Shown: positions 11,668-36,347 of the stretch, one piece after another
Layout: each line of letters starts with the position of its first letter
Numbering within the stretch: the first letter of the stretch is position 1
NCBI GenBank assembly: GCA_030524125.1
Contig: JAUNHB010000001.1
Span: forward strand, 1 to 51,919
DNA length: 51,919 nt
Origin: Eubacteriales bacterium
GTDB taxonomy: Bacteria > Bacillota > Clostridia > Lachnospirales > Lachnospiraceae
Reading direction: 5' to 3'
Notes under the pieces: model-generated
Told to the model about the DNA's origin: nothing
Database searches by the model: none
What the model saw: the letters and a program-made list of their open reading frames with translations, nothing else
Translations under genes and position numbers: made by a program

Positions 11668-11831
11668 GTAACAGTTCAGCCCGCGCCATTCGCAAAGCCG
11701 CGCTGACGCGCTCCCCGCCGCTGCGCGGCTATCTTTGCTCATGACTCGGCGCTCCCTCAGCCGGGGGCAACAGGCTCAAATTCGTGCAAGCACGATTTGG
11801 GCCTGTCACTCCCGGCTGGCTGAGCTGTTAT
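11668..11831. mobile_element. R2a: MITE-like dispersed element
   Basis: A 164-bp element with imperfect terminal inverted repeats (GTAACAGTTCAGCC at the left, GGCTGAGCTGTTAT at the right). Its interior closely matches the copy at 29199-29363, including CGCAAAGCCGCGCTGACGCG and a hairpin around TTCGTGC/GCACGA. It encodes no protein. Its right end forms the last codons and the stop of the ArnT-like gene. I find no clear target duplication here, so the copy may be older. Confidence 0.75.
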
Positions 11832-24527: not shown

Positions 24528-24606
24528 GTAACAGTTCAGCCATGCATCTCGAAAGCCCGCTGCTTCGCAGCTCTACTCCATATTTCCCGCATGGCTGAAC
24601 AGTTAC
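24528..24606. mobile_element. R2c: short MITE-like element
   Basis: A 79-bp element whose ends, GTAACAGTTCAGCCATGC and its complement, match over 17 of 18 bases. It is flanked by GAAAAAAC on the left and GAAAAAGC on the right, a 7-of-8 match to an 8-bp target duplication. The short interior does not match R2a/R2b. It lies in the divergent control region between rarA and the HAD gene. Confidence 0.75.
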
Positions 24607-28306: not shown

Positions 28307-28323
28307 CCTTTTTTTATTTCAAA

Positions 28324-28450
28324 AGAATCCTGCCGCGCAGGATTCTCCGCCTGCGGCGGGTCGCTTAAGCGACATGATTCTATTCCGCCGCAGTGCGATC
28401 CTTGCGGAGCATTTTTGTATCATAGGACGTACTTTCCTATGATACAAAAA
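28324..28450 (-). repeat. R1-B: multi-hairpin dispersed element
   Basis: Reading on the minus strand, it begins with P1 (TTTTTGTATCATAGGA paired with its complement). The CTCCGC/GCGGAG and CTGCGGCGG/CCGCCGCAG central arm follows, capped by GTCGC-ttaa-GCGAC, and it ends with P5 (AGAATCCTGC...GCAGGATTCT). It starts inside the T-run of the spoIIIAH terminator and ends at the GntR promoter. Confidence 0.8.
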
Positions 28451-28508: not shown

Positions 28509-29180
28509 CTAATCTCCCGACACCGGCGTGATCGTGATGTTCGCCGCCTCGATCCCGGTCTTGCGCTTCACGATGTCCTCGATCTGCGCCCGCTGGGAGT
28601 CGCTGACCTGCGTGCTGCTGACTACCACGTCCGCGCAGGAATCGCTGATGCTGACCACCACGTCGTCAAAGCCCTGCGCGGCCAGAAGCGTCTCGGCGGC
28701 CAGCTCTTTCTCGGCCACGTCGGTCATCTCCACCATCTCGTCGATGGCTCCCTGCTTCTGCTCGTCGGTGATGTCGGCGCTGTTGATAAGCTCCATGAGG
28801 ATCTCCTTGTTTCGGGAACGAGTCTGCTCCCTCGTCACTCTCGCCTCCGACACCAGTCCCGCCCCCGCCGTACTGCTGGCCAGCACGGTCTCGCCGGCGT
28901 CTTCTCCGGCATCGGCCGTCTCCGCATCGTAGTCCTCGTCGAGACTGGCGATGTCTCCCTGCTCCTCCCCGGTTCCGGCGTAAATGTCCTCATCGGAGAT
29001 GTCCGACGCCAGCGAGAGTTCCCCGGAATCCTCCACGGAAGCGCTGCCCGCGCTCAGGAGCGCTCCGTCCAGCGTGGTGCCCGAATAATTCAGGTAGCCG
29101 GCCACCGCGATCATGGCCGCCAGCGCGGTGATGATCATCTGGTTTTTCTTGAATACAGGTTTTTTCAACAACTGCTTCAC
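28509..29180 (-). CDS. spoIIIAH: Stage III sporulation protein AH
   Basis: This 223-aa protein has one N-terminal membrane helix (about residues 13-32, MIITALAAMIAVAGYL). An acidic linker and a C-terminal YscJ/FliF-like ring-building domain follow (SRNKEILMELINSADITDEQK ... EDIVKRKTGIEAANITITPV). SpoIIIAH sits in the mother-cell membrane and binds forespore SpoIIQ to form the channel across the engulfment space. Translation starts at GTG with GGAGGG 7 nt upstream. That signal is the same one that would have coupled it to spoIIIAG before element R2b inserted between them. Confidence 0.95.
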   Translation of the reverse strand: MKQLLKKPVFKKNQMIITALAAMIAVAGYLNYSGTTLDGALLSAGSASVEDSGELSLASDISDEDIYAGTGEEQGDIASLDEDYDAETADAGEDAGETVLASSTAGAGLVSEARVTREQTRSRNKEILMELINSADITDEQKQGAIDEMVEMTDVAEKELAAETLLAAQGFDDVVVSISDSCADVVVSSTQVSDSQRAQIEDIVKRKTGIEAANITITPVSGD

Positions 29181-29198
29181 TTGCTTCCCTCCATTTTC

Positions 29199-29363
29199 GC
29201 AACCGTTCAGCCCGCGCCATTCGCAAAGCCGCGCTGACGCGCTTCCCGCCGCTTGCGCGGCTGTCTTTGCTCATGATCCGGCGCTCCCTCGGCCGGGAGC
29301 GGCAGGCCTCCATTCGTGCAGGCACGATTCCGTCCTGTTATTCCCGGCCGGCTGAACTGTTGC
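29199..29363. mobile_element. R2b: MITE-like element inserted between spoIIIAG and spoIIIAH
   Basis: A 165-bp element with 14-bp terminal inverted repeats matching at 13 positions (GCAACCGTTCAGCC and GGCTGAACTGTTGC). It is flanked by the exact 8-bp direct repeat CCATTTTC (29191-29198 and 29364-29371). No coding frame is shared with R2a. The 8-bp duplication and GYAAC ends recall the IS66 family, but no transposase is present. Its right end encodes the last eight residues and stop of SpoIIIAG. Confidence 0.9.
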
Positions 29364-29886
29364 CCATTTTCATTATTTTAATCTTATGAGGCTCGATGCC
29401 AAATAATGCCTGCGCCGCCTCCAATATATCCGACTGCACCGACGTGCTCCCGCCCCCCTGCGCGATCACCAGCACTCCCGTCACCTTCGGGTTGGTCCGG
29501 GACGATATGTACGGCGTCCGGTCCCCGTCGGTCTCCTCGTAGACCGTCTCCTCCTGCGTGCCGTCCGAGGACCTGCTCTTGTCCTTCTCCACCTGTTCTT
29601 CTCCCGTGCCCTCAAAGGTCAGCATGACGCGCACCTCCCCCACTCCCTCCACCGAAGCGAGCAGCTCTTCGAGCCTGCGTTCCATGCGGGTCCCGTAGTC
29701 CGCCTCCCCAGCCGGTTCCCCGGCCTCCTGATCCTCCGAGATCTCCTGCTCCGTCTCCTCCTTTCGCTCCGCCGGAAGGGCGATCACCGCCAGCAGAAGC
29801 CCCGTAAGCACCAGGATCAATAGCTGCTCCTTTCCGGGCGGCCAGTATTTTTTTCTTAACTTCCCGTACCATTCCTTCCCGGTCAC
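29338..29886 (-). CDS. spoIIIAG: Stage III sporulation protein AG, C-terminus altered by a MITE
   Basis: This 182-aa protein has a membrane helix (about residues 19-38), an acidic linker and the SpoIIIAG ring domain (RLEELLASVEGVGEVRVMLTFE ... VTGVLVIAQGGGS ... EAAQALFGIEPHKIKIMKM). SpoIIIAG forms a large ring in the mother-cell membrane of the forespore channel. The start is GTG overlapping the spoIIIAF stop (GTGA), with GGAGGAG upstream; an ATG 18 nt earlier lacks a ribosome binding site. The last residues, GNSSAGRE, come from R2b. The ancestral end reconstructed from the flanks is EGSK with a GTGA overlap into spoIIIAH. Confidence 0.92.
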   Translation of the reverse strand: MTGKEWYGKLRKKYWPPGKEQLLILVLTGLLLAVIALPAERKEETEQEISEDQEAGEPAGEADYGTRMERRLEELLASVEGVGEVRVMLTFEGTGEEQVEKDKSRSSDGTQEETVYEETDGDRTPYISSRTNPKVTGVLVIAQGGGSTSVQSDILEAAQALFGIEPHKIKIMKMGNSSAGRE

Positions 29887-30113
29887 TCCAGCTCCTCCTC
29901 CCATTCCAGCATCTGCGTCAGCGCCTGCTCATCCATCTGCTCCGCCAGCCGGAAGATCCTGAAAACGGGCTGCAAGAGAAGCACGACCAGGAGAAGACCC
30001 AGATAAAATTTTACATATTTTTCATAGCCTGTTCCGGGCAGCAGGTTCAGCACCACCTGCTCCAGCAGGTAAAATACCGCCACCACCCGGACCATCTCCA
30101 GAATTTCCTGCAT
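29883..30113 (-). CDS. spoIIIAF: Stage III sporulation protein AF, short form
   Basis: At 76 aa this is far shorter than the B. subtilis protein (about 200 aa). It keeps the two N-terminal membrane helices (FYLLEQVVLNLLPG and YVKFYLGLLLVVLLLQPVF), then only about 25 residues, ending LEWEEELE. The soluble domain is missing. The stop is precisely coupled to the spoIIIAG GTG start, so the gene looks settled in this form rather than freshly frameshifted. Position between spoIIIAE and spoIIIAG is the main evidence for its identity. Confidence 0.8.
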   Translation of the reverse strand: MQEILEMVRVVAVFYLLEQVVLNLLPGTGYEKYVKFYLGLLLVVLLLQPVFRIFRLAEQMDEQALTQMLEWEEELE

Positions 30114-30135
30114 CCCGCTCCCTCCCGCGCCGCCT

Positions 30136-31167
30136 TCAGCGCCCCGTCATCATGGTAGCCAGCGCCACCGTCAGGAGAAACAGCACCAGCACCGTGAACA
30201 CCGTCTGGAACAAAAGTCTCATGCCGCACGCCATTCCCGCCAGACATCCTGTGATCCGCTCGTCCGACACCGGCTGCAGCACGGCGGCCAACAGATAGTA
30301 GACCGCCATGATGATCCCCAGCTTGACCAGCGGGACCATGCACAGAAGGATCAGCGCCGCCAGCGCCGCCGCCCCGACGCCGTTTTTGATCAGCATGGCG
30401 GAGCCGAGCACCATATCCGTCACCGAGCCGGACACGTCCCCCACGCCCGGCACCATCTGAAGCCCCCGGCTTACGCTCATGGCCCGGAACGCGTCCGCCG
30501 CCGGGGAGATCATCCCCTGGATCATATGAAATCCCATGACGATCGCCAGCGCCGCCTTCAGGCTCCACCCCACAAGAAGCTCCATAAGCTCCGCGAACCG
30601 TCCAAGCCTCGCCTCCTTTGAAAGGTGGTTGGCCAGGACCAGCAGCACATAGATCTCCACGCAGGGCAGGACAAAGAGCTCCAGAAAGCGCTGCAGCGCT
30701 GAGACGAGCAGCAGGATAAATTCGTAATATACTCCCGCCGACATGGTGTACGAGGTCAGCATCATGGCTAAAAAATACGCGGGGGCCAGCGCCGTCATAA
30801 AGCTTCGCATGGCTCCCAGCACGTGCTCCGCCACCTGCAGGCTGCTCCGGAAGGAGGCGATCAGGATCAGAAACAAGATCATGTAGATCATGCAGAAGCT
30901 GATCTGCGAGACGTTTTTGTTCTGGAATACGTCTGCAAAGTGGATCAGCACCGCCGCCGCGACGGCCAGGATCAGAATGTGCACCCAAAGCTGCTTCTGT
31001 TCCAGAAGCTCCCGGAACAAAAGCTTCTGAAACGCTTCCGCAAGACTGCTCCACGAAAAAATGCTCTCTCCTGAGGCGCCCTTTTCCGCCATGTCCTGAA
31101 AATTCACGACGCCTCCGAGCATCTCGTCCAGAACCTCCTGAAGCTCTCCGAAATCAATCTCTCCCAT
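30136..31167 (-). CDS. spoIIIAE: Stage III sporulation protein AE
   Basis: This 343-aa polytopic membrane protein has eight or so hydrophobic segments and the family stretches GVYYEFILLLVSALQRFLELFVLPCVEIYVLL, GMISPAADAF and GLQMVPGVGD. It is a membrane component of the SpoIIIA-SpoIIQ feeding channel. The chosen start has GGCGGAG close upstream. With it the protein lacks the N-terminal signal peptide seen in Bacillus, and no hydrophobic stretch exists further upstream in frame either. Confidence 0.93.
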   Translation of the reverse strand: MGEIDFGELQEVLDEMLGGVVNFQDMAEKGASGESIFSWSSLAEAFQKLLFRELLEQKQLWVHILILAVAAAVLIHFADVFQNKNVSQISFCMIYMILFLILIASFRSSLQVAEHVLGAMRSFMTALAPAYFLAMMLTSYTMSAGVYYEFILLLVSALQRFLELFVLPCVEIYVLLVLANHLSKEARLGRFAELMELLVGWSLKAALAIVMGFHMIQGMISPAADAFRAMSVSRGLQMVPGVGDVSGSVTDMVLGSAMLIKNGVGAAALAALILLCMVPLVKLGIIMAVYYLLAAVLQPVSDERITGCLAGMACGMRLLFQTVFTVLVLFLLTVALATMMTGR

Positions 31168-33338: not shown

Positions 33339-33378
33339 TAAAGAATCGCGGCCAGCTCACAGGGTGTATTGCGTAAAC

Positions 33379-33514
33379 AGAATCCTGCGACGCAGGATTC
33401 TCCGCCTGCGGCGGGTCGCTTTGGCGACATGTTTCCGATCCGCCGCAGTGCGATCCTCGCGGAGCGTTTTTGTGTTATAGGAACATTACGGAGTGATTTC
33501 CTATAACACAAAAA
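33379..33514 (-). repeat. R1-A: multi-hairpin dispersed element
   Basis: On the minus strand it starts with P1 (TTTTTGTGTTATAGGAA and complement, 14-nt loop). The central arm (CTCCGC/GCGGAG, CTGCGGCGG/CCGCCGCAG, GTCGC-caaa-GCGAC) and P5 (AGAATCCTGCG/CGCAGGATTCT) follow. It begins in the T-run of the pnp terminator and ends about 40 bp before the SigE-like promoter of spoIIIAA. Confidence 0.8.
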
Positions 33515-36187: not shown

Positions 36188-36202
36188 GTACTTTTGCTGC
36201 GC

Positions 36203-36285
36203 CAGCTTTTGCCAGTCGGGAGCGGCAGGACAAAATCGTGCTCTCACGAATTTTGATCTGTTACTTCCGGCTAAGCGGTCACATT
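36203..36285. repeat. R2d: diverged right half of an R2 element
   Basis: The segment from TCGGGAGCGGCAGGA through a TCGTG/CACGA hairpin to CTTCCGGCTAAGCGG follows the right half of R2a/R2b in order and spacing, with many changes. It lies between the rpsO promoter and the promoter of the secreted repeat protein. No left end or flanking duplication is seen. Confidence 0.5.
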
Positions 36286-36318
36286 TTCATTTTCCCGGTA
36301 TTGCCCGCCCCAAGTCAC

Positions 36319-36347
36319 TTGAAAACCGACGGCGGGAATGGTATTCT
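36319..36347 (+). promoter_or_regulatory. Sigma-A promoter of the secreted repeat protein
   Basis: TTGAAA (36319-36324) and TATTCT (36342-36347) are separated by 17 bp, about 44 nt before the TTG start. Confidence 0.6.

Follow-up and report, generated by a model that had tools for sequence, protein, structure and literature searches.

The window analysed here is the whole stretch of 51,919 nt from an Eubacteriales bacterium of the Lachnospiraceae (GCA_030524125.1, contig JAUNHB010000001.1, positions 1–51,919), whose genome is a draft assembly of 95 contigs that is 80 % complete. The spoIIIA operon lies on the minus strand of the window, and its genes AA to AG were named via NCBIfam, with the scores of AB, AD, AE, AF and AG (the last against TIGR02830) remaining under the respective cut-offs. 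The NCBIfam profile comparison gave no match for spoIIIAH, which was therefore identified by its position and its similarity to sister sequences. The genome also contains spoIVA with no internal stop. At the 3′ end of spoIIIAG, a short repeat separates this gene from spoIIIAH. The features of this junction, and a second copy of the same repeat family in the window, are listed below.

28509..29180, minus strand: spoIIIAH, GTG start at 29180; frame open, with 67–82 % identity to 12 sisters (mean 77 %)
29187..29192, minus strand: GGAGGG Shine–Dalgarno sequence of spoIIIAH, kept; its first two G (29192–29191) lie in the spoIIIAH-side duplication copy
29191..29198, no strand: target-site duplication copy CCATTTTC, spoIIIAH side (read from the sequence and supported by the empty site in relatives)
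29199..29363, minus strand: MITE-like element of 165 bp; its folded interior aligns with Clostridiales-1 on the minus strand, which is the strand of the spoIIIA operon
29199..29212, plus strand: left terminal inverted repeat GCAACCGTTCAGCC (read from the sequence and the end-site scan)
29216..29282, minus strand: structured 3′ domain, consisting of a AUGAGCAAAG ... CUUUGCGAAU stem that encloses two hairpins; pairs formed: 18 of 18
29291..29349, minus strand: hairpin 1 (apex CGUGCCUGCACG); pairs formed: 20 of 26, the minimum among 40 copies of this genome
29350..29363, minus strand: right terminal inverted repeat, GCAACAGTTCAGCC on the minus strand (read from the sequence and the end-site scan)
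29364..29371, no strand: target-site duplication copy CCATTTTC, within the spoIIIAG coding end (read from the sequence and supported by the empty site in relatives)
29338..29886, minus strand: spoIIIAG, its GTG start at 29886 sharing GTGA with the stop of spoIIIAF; stop TAA at 29340–29338
11668..11831, minus strand: second family copy; the upstream PMT_2 glycosyltransferase (locus L019) ends DNSSASRE in it

The spoIIIAG/spoIIIAH junction and its empty site in relatives

The 14-bp inverted ends of the element are identical at 13 of 14 bases, and the two copies of CCATTTTC that surround it form an exact 8-bp match, so that the MITE-like insertion described in the original prediction is read directly from the sequence. 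The element shows properties of a MITE, i.e. a length of 165 bp, no transposase gene, paired inverted ends, a target-site duplication of constant length and many dispersed copies. As had also been proposed, the insertion provides a new in-frame tail and stop; SpoIIIAG now ends ...KIKIMKM-GNSSAGRE, followed by TAA, and the last eight residues together with the stop are encoded by junction and element sequence. From this stop, the GTG of spoIIIAH lies 157 nt further on. Removal of the element and one 8-bp copy yields ATTAAAATAATGAAAATGGAGGGAAGCAAGTGAAGCAG, i.e. the C-terminus KMEGSK* with a GTGA overlap, and the same overlap is seen, as claimed, at the spoIIIAF/spoIIIAG junction (29886–29883).

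Among 17 genomes of the genus, spoIIIAG was located in 15 including the genome studied, which leaves 14 sister junctions for comparison. The element is missing at all 13 readable ones, the fourteenth (L037) being masked by Ns, and among the 15 loci R1, a model of the element, matched at the own locus only (a copy within the Ns of L037 could be missed). The GTGA overlap occurs at 9 of the 14 junctions, three of which (L035, L038 and L039, from three sister species) carry the rebuilt empty site verbatim, from ATTAAAATAATG through AAGTGAAGCAG. A GGD tail is found at four others, in three cases with TAA followed directly by GTG and in one (L045) with TAAGTA. The last SpoIIIAG residues vary among relatives (EGSK, EETK, EGTQ, GGD, K, I, NQ, KQTT and SHESS), and an NSSAGRE tail was absent from all 36 parsable loci of 55 further ones, some of which belong to sister genomes (19 were unparsable). 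The comparison of relatives thus returned the predicted empty site. The refuting observations named in the original prediction were not encountered: the spacer is absent from all 13 readable sister junctions, and the NSSAGRE tail from the 36 further loci. The insertion in the spoIIIA operon is confirmed.

Copies and folded interior of the repeat family

At least 51 places in the own genome match the element (by our count, 42 near full length and 9 fragments), a lower bound because only 40 of 190 first-look candidates were scored. End-like sites with at most one mismatch number 218 in this genome, compared with 5 for the reversed pattern used as a control. The abundance of the family in Lachnospiraceae is patchy; the element sequence matched 6 of 61 genomes searched and the exact end pattern 82 of 299 genomes of the family Lachnospiraceae, the own genome included in both counts, and six others hold 74–165 sites.

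Target duplications were assessed in 40 elements that had been selected for exactly matching end pairs in six other genomes, of which one (G324) contributed 27. An exact 8-bp duplication accompanies 25 of the 40 and a 9-bp match none, while the flanks are alike at 7–8 of 8 positions in 33, compared with 0.75 % for swapped flanks. At many own-genome copies a duplication is not clearly recognizable, as would be expected if these copies were older. The family ends mostly read GTAAC, the spoIIIA copy having GCAAC. The latter scored 169.8 bits on the minus strand against R1, although it is among the sequences from which the model was built, and shows 88.8 % identity to a hand-typed family consensus. 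It differs by 19 bases from the own-genome consensus, a divergence reached or exceeded in 7 of 40 copies, itself included. A recent jump is therefore thought unlikely, since the spoIIIA copy is among the more diverged of the 40.

Several other arrangements of the repeats were observed. Head-to-tail arrays comprise three copies at L073 (481–961) and two at L076 (527–835), the second cut by the contig end, and L074 and L075 carry more neighbouring or broken copies. Another palindromic repeat is nested within the element in 366- and 367-bp forms (L071, 504–869; L070, 523–889). The window itself contains a 79-bp element (24528–24606) with family ends (GTAACAGTTCAGCC / GTAACTGTTCAGCC) and a different interior, and in other genomes there are forms of only 31 to 42 bp with such ends (L165, L162 and L150). 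At 36199–36344 in the window, R1 matched with 39.0 bits on the plus and 24.6 bits on the minus strand, possibly indicating a related or merely palindromic repeat. A second repeat family lies on both sides of the spoIIIA operon (28321–28427 and 33376–33482; 88 % identical, same orientation) and matches 36 places in the genome, fragments counted.

The interior of the family was examined in an alignment of 58 of 71 full-length copies (40 of 44 from the own genome and 18 of 27 from G324, G271, G019 and G107). The family structure, which was drawn by hand from the same alignment, is formed in 89.8 % of cells. Pairs changed on both sides number 33 of 57, and the corresponding cells amount to 223, against 64 ± 7 in shuffles and 26–89 when the structure was slid. 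On the operon strand, G-U cells exceed A-C cells by 174 to 88 overall. Without the end helix the counts are 155 to 48, and by difference the helix itself shows the reverse relation (19 to 40). This excess favours rather than proves a role as operon-strand RNA, because related copies are not independent.

Gene 3′ ends were located relative to 44 own-genome copies by gene calls from a simple codon model. Within −30 to +15 nt, a window set post hoc, a gene ends at the RNA 5′ end of 14 copies and at the opposite end of one; when the window was widened to +30 nt, the counts were 14 and 4. In other genera, among copies of known orientation, they were 8 and 2 (p about 0.11; L277, L282 and L294 were dropped, their orientation being undefined). 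One more own-genome gene (L086) ends 103 nt inside a copy. Of eleven listed frames ending at copies, ten were scanned against Pfam, and eight contain a known domain, namely two PMT_2 glycosyltransferases, a queuine tRNA-ribosyltransferase, a pyridine nucleotide-disulphide oxidoreductase, a phosphoglucomutase-type C-terminal domain, NUDIX, RNase H and a histidine phosphatase; the Pfam scan of the L022 and L030 frames gave no domain, and these may be false frames. The stop is supplied by or formed at the copy in nine genes, spoIIIAG and the eight with a Pfam domain, three of the latter ending in NSSASRE or FSSASRD.

Effect of the insertion and competing explanations

The GGAGGG site of spoIIIAH is whole and still stands at its native distance from the start, its first two bases being supplied by the GG of the 8-bp duplication. 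In predicted folds with and without the element, this site and the start codon are about equally, and mostly, paired. Passing ribosomes would help to open such a start in the ancestral overlap, and hence a loss of translational coupling between spoIIIAG and spoIIIAH is plausible on this model. In the original prediction, the insertion was held to have broken coupling. This reading is supported in part: the GTGA overlap is lost, but with GGAGGG kept and the predicted pairing similar, a functional break or altered stoichiometry would be no more than a possible consequence. Another possible way to sustain spoIIIAH could be an internal promoter, by analogy with Clostridium difficile, in which spoIIIAG-AH is driven by one according to the available text of PMC4605598. 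A scan of 28950–30200 revealed two terminator-like sites, both on the plus strand and one of them inside the element (29248–29261), and none on the operon strand within the element. A promoter-like site (10/12; chance expectation 0.3) was seen on the operon strand at 29402–29375, within spoIIIAG just upstream of the element.

The altered tail is unlikely to matter much, because the residues after KM vary among relatives. The conservation of SpoIIIAH is ordinary (own mean identity of 77 %, compared with 73–83 % for 12 sisters). Among 14 SpoIIIAG sequences, that of the own genome resembles the others least (59 % against 61–68 %), which weakly allows for relaxed constraint; since the tested part of SpoIIIAE is also the lowest (71 % against 72–77 %), the whole lineage may be somewhat fast. 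The effect of the insertion on sporulation is probably small.

The explanation held to be very probable is the transposition of a non-autonomous element from a MITE-like family of the Lachnospiraceae into spoIIIAG. The sequence comparison shows that it entered the codon four places ahead of the original stop, duplicated 8 bp, converted EGSK to GNSSAGRE and abolished the spoIIIAG/spoIIIAH GTGA overlap but left GGAGGG in place. The mover would be a transposase that recognizes the GTAACNGTTCAGCC ends in trans. SpoIIIAG would work with its new tail, because the replaced residues are not conserved, and spoIIIAH would be initiated de novo at its own ribosome site in place of restart, perhaps at a lower yield. 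The insertion would then have been kept as nearly neutral. The locus thus documents, base by base, how a mobile repeat has rewritten the 3′ end of a gene for a sporulation channel and spared the ribosome site of the next gene.

It is hardly credible that the 165 bp represent an ancestral spacer lost in the sister species, given that the 13 readable sister junctions lack the element, that 9 have the tight GTGA overlap and that these 165 bp recur throughout the genome as a repeat, with inverted ends and a duplication. The mis-splicing of a repeat into the contig deserves consideration in a draft genome with many repeat copies, but it would not be expected to duplicate exactly 8 bp or to leave the two flanks aligned in register with the operon of the sisters, and such an artefact is judged highly improbable. 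Spread by hairpin-templated or REP-type copying, with no transposase involved, would accommodate the hairpin-rich, tandem and nested copies as well as the outcome of the IS66 search described below, in which no transposase with family ends was found. Constant 8-bp target duplications beside paired 14-bp ends are, however, the mark of a DDE-type transposase, and their occurrence in several genera makes this route improbable.

More weight, though still that of an unlikely alternative, is given to domestication, in which the sense-strand fold in the spoIIIA mRNA would set mRNA stability or processing between spoIIIAG and spoIIIAH and be kept by selection. The strong covariation of the family (both partners changed in 33 of 57 pairs), the G-U excess outside the end helix (155 to 48), the clustering of gene 3′ ends near the RNA 5′ end (14 of 44 own-genome copies against 1 opposite) and the intact 3′ domain of the spoIIIA copy (18 of 18 pairs) would all agree with such a role. 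On the other hand, hairpin 1 has decayed further in this very copy than in the rest of the 40 (20 of 26 pairs), the end helix shows the opposite G-U to A-C relation (19 to 40), the insertion was seen in one species only, and no terminator-like site was found on the operon strand of the element. Moreover, the distance window behind the 3′-end count was set post hoc, and the contrast is smaller at +30 nt (14 vs 4) and in other genera (8 vs 2, p about 0.11).

Relation to known mobile elements and structured RNAs

The GTAA end and the 8-bp duplication are defining marks of IS66, and the search for a mobilizing transposase was accordingly directed at this family (PF03050); no transposase with family ends was found in it. 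The own genome lacks IS66, as do 8 of the 16 others that were searched (G069, G114 and G324 among them), and three of these eight have more than 100 end sites. No GTAACNGTTCAGCC-like end pair was detected in 27 IS66 loci (16 + 11), where single end-like sites with one mismatch occur at L058 and L187. Sister genomes contain complete IS66-type elements (L054 and L056) whose 16-bp ends (GTAAGCGTCAAATAAG) and 8-bp duplications are both exact, and the copies with recognizable ends (L054, L056 and L177) begin with GTAAGCG. They resemble the family in the initial GTAA and the duplication length but differ in the rest of the end. IS66 was rejected as the mobilizer, since for all the fit of ends and duplication no IS66 locus has paired family ends and half of the 16 genomes are devoid of it. 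An autonomous copy was also sought by end spacing among 92 exact ends in G324, which gave short pairs, mostly of 100–166 bp, and no longer pair enclosing a gene.

The folded interior of the family resembles the Rfam family Clostridiales-1 (RF01699), described as probably an RNA and probably not cis-regulatory in the available portion of Weinberg et al. 2010 (PMC2864571). The spoIIIA copy aligns with RF01699 from end to end on the operon strand, at 17.3 bits (E about 0.093–0.14) against a gathering cut-off of 48. Matches were obtained in 7 of 20 loci searched (20.8–41.8 bits, all below 48, the top value belonging to a family copy), those of family copies being always on the same strand, whereas the full-length copies L190, L193, L206, L219, L221 and L225 from other genera gave no match at E 1. 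In comparison, a different repeat in L089 (297–449) scored 38.2 bits against RF01699, a microRNA family matched a long hairpin in L218 with 42 bits, and R1 gave 35.3 bits to the wrong strand of the genuine copy at 11668 and 39.0 bits to the site at 36199. Because hairpins and palindromes score comparably, scores of 17–42 bits alone do not prove kinship, which renders the link tentative, and the argument leans on strand agreement and shared core letters. In the reciprocal search of 27 Clostridiales-1 loci, R1 gave 16 matches in 13 loci, 11 loci being matched on the copy and its own strand. Five matches remain, of which two fall on additional Clostridiales-1 copies in L252, one on a second copy near L253, one at L233 (81–121, adjoining the fetched copy) and one at L251 (39–153, other strand).

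The likeness consists of the same strand and order of hairpin 1 (CGUGCUUGCACG apex, bulged A) and the AUGAGCA ... UGCGAAU stem, and the best sign of it is these core letters (AUGAGCA, UGCGAAU and CGUGCUUGCACG); in addition, RF01699 aligns end to end with some family copies. The differences are the missing third hairpin (33–34 model positions are skipped) and the ends, with an 8-bp duplication in the family and an apparent 5-bp one in Clostridiales-1. The family is thus tentatively regarded as Clostridiales-1-like but not assignable to RF01699.

Bona fide Clostridiales-1 occurs in high copy number; it matched 65 of 120 genomes of the family at E 1e-3, 53 of them above the cut-off, and has 18 matches in the own genome. 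Its loci (L228–L254) mostly show TGAT...ATCA ends, in many cases approximately 30 nt past the Rfam model. An exact 5-bp duplication accompanies 7 of the 17 copies with a right end found, compared with 1.7 % for swapped flanks; the end pattern missed the right end in 10 of 27 copies, and in L239, L241 and L250, whose ends it mis-set, a 5-bp duplication fits by eye. The Clostridiales-1 copies themselves look mobile from these sequence features. In the titles and abstract starts covered by the literature search, neither the element family nor Clostridiales-1 was described as mobile, and a search for GTTCAGCC with inverted repeat found no description of the element family there.

A broader and rather doubtful reading is that a conserved, folded RNA module has spread through Lachnospiraceae by at least two transposition systems and lies in sense at gene 3′ ends, where it would give a stop and a portable 3′-UTR. 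The two systems would be, with the same doubt, one of GTAACNGTTCAGCC ends and 8-bp duplications and one of the TGAT...ATCA Clostridiales-1 form with apparent 5-bp duplications. If this were true, Clostridiales-1, so far an orphan candidate sRNA, would have to be counted among mobile elements, and the insertion in spoIIIA would exemplify the rewiring of an operon by it. The present observations may link a large MITE family of gut bacteria with an unexplained Rfam sRNA candidate, and they open to test the claim that Clostridiales-1-type RNAs are mobile elements with a conserved fold and that several genes end in donated sequence.

Small mobile repeats at gene 3′ ends have also been reported in other hosts, the sequences of which were not compared with the present family. 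The available text on the Coxiella burnetii MITEs QMITE1 and QMITE2 (PMC5896051) describes overlaps of 1–50 bp with the 3′ ends of functional genes and one case in which 33 C-terminal residues are provided. Likewise, the enterobacterial RU-1 and RU-2 repeats (127 and 168 bp) are fused to gene 3′ ends, in one instance with deletion of the native stop, as stated in the accessible part of PMC2759123. Gene tails made by MITEs are therefore already known, and what is new here is that the MITE is a structured, Clostridiales-1-like one.
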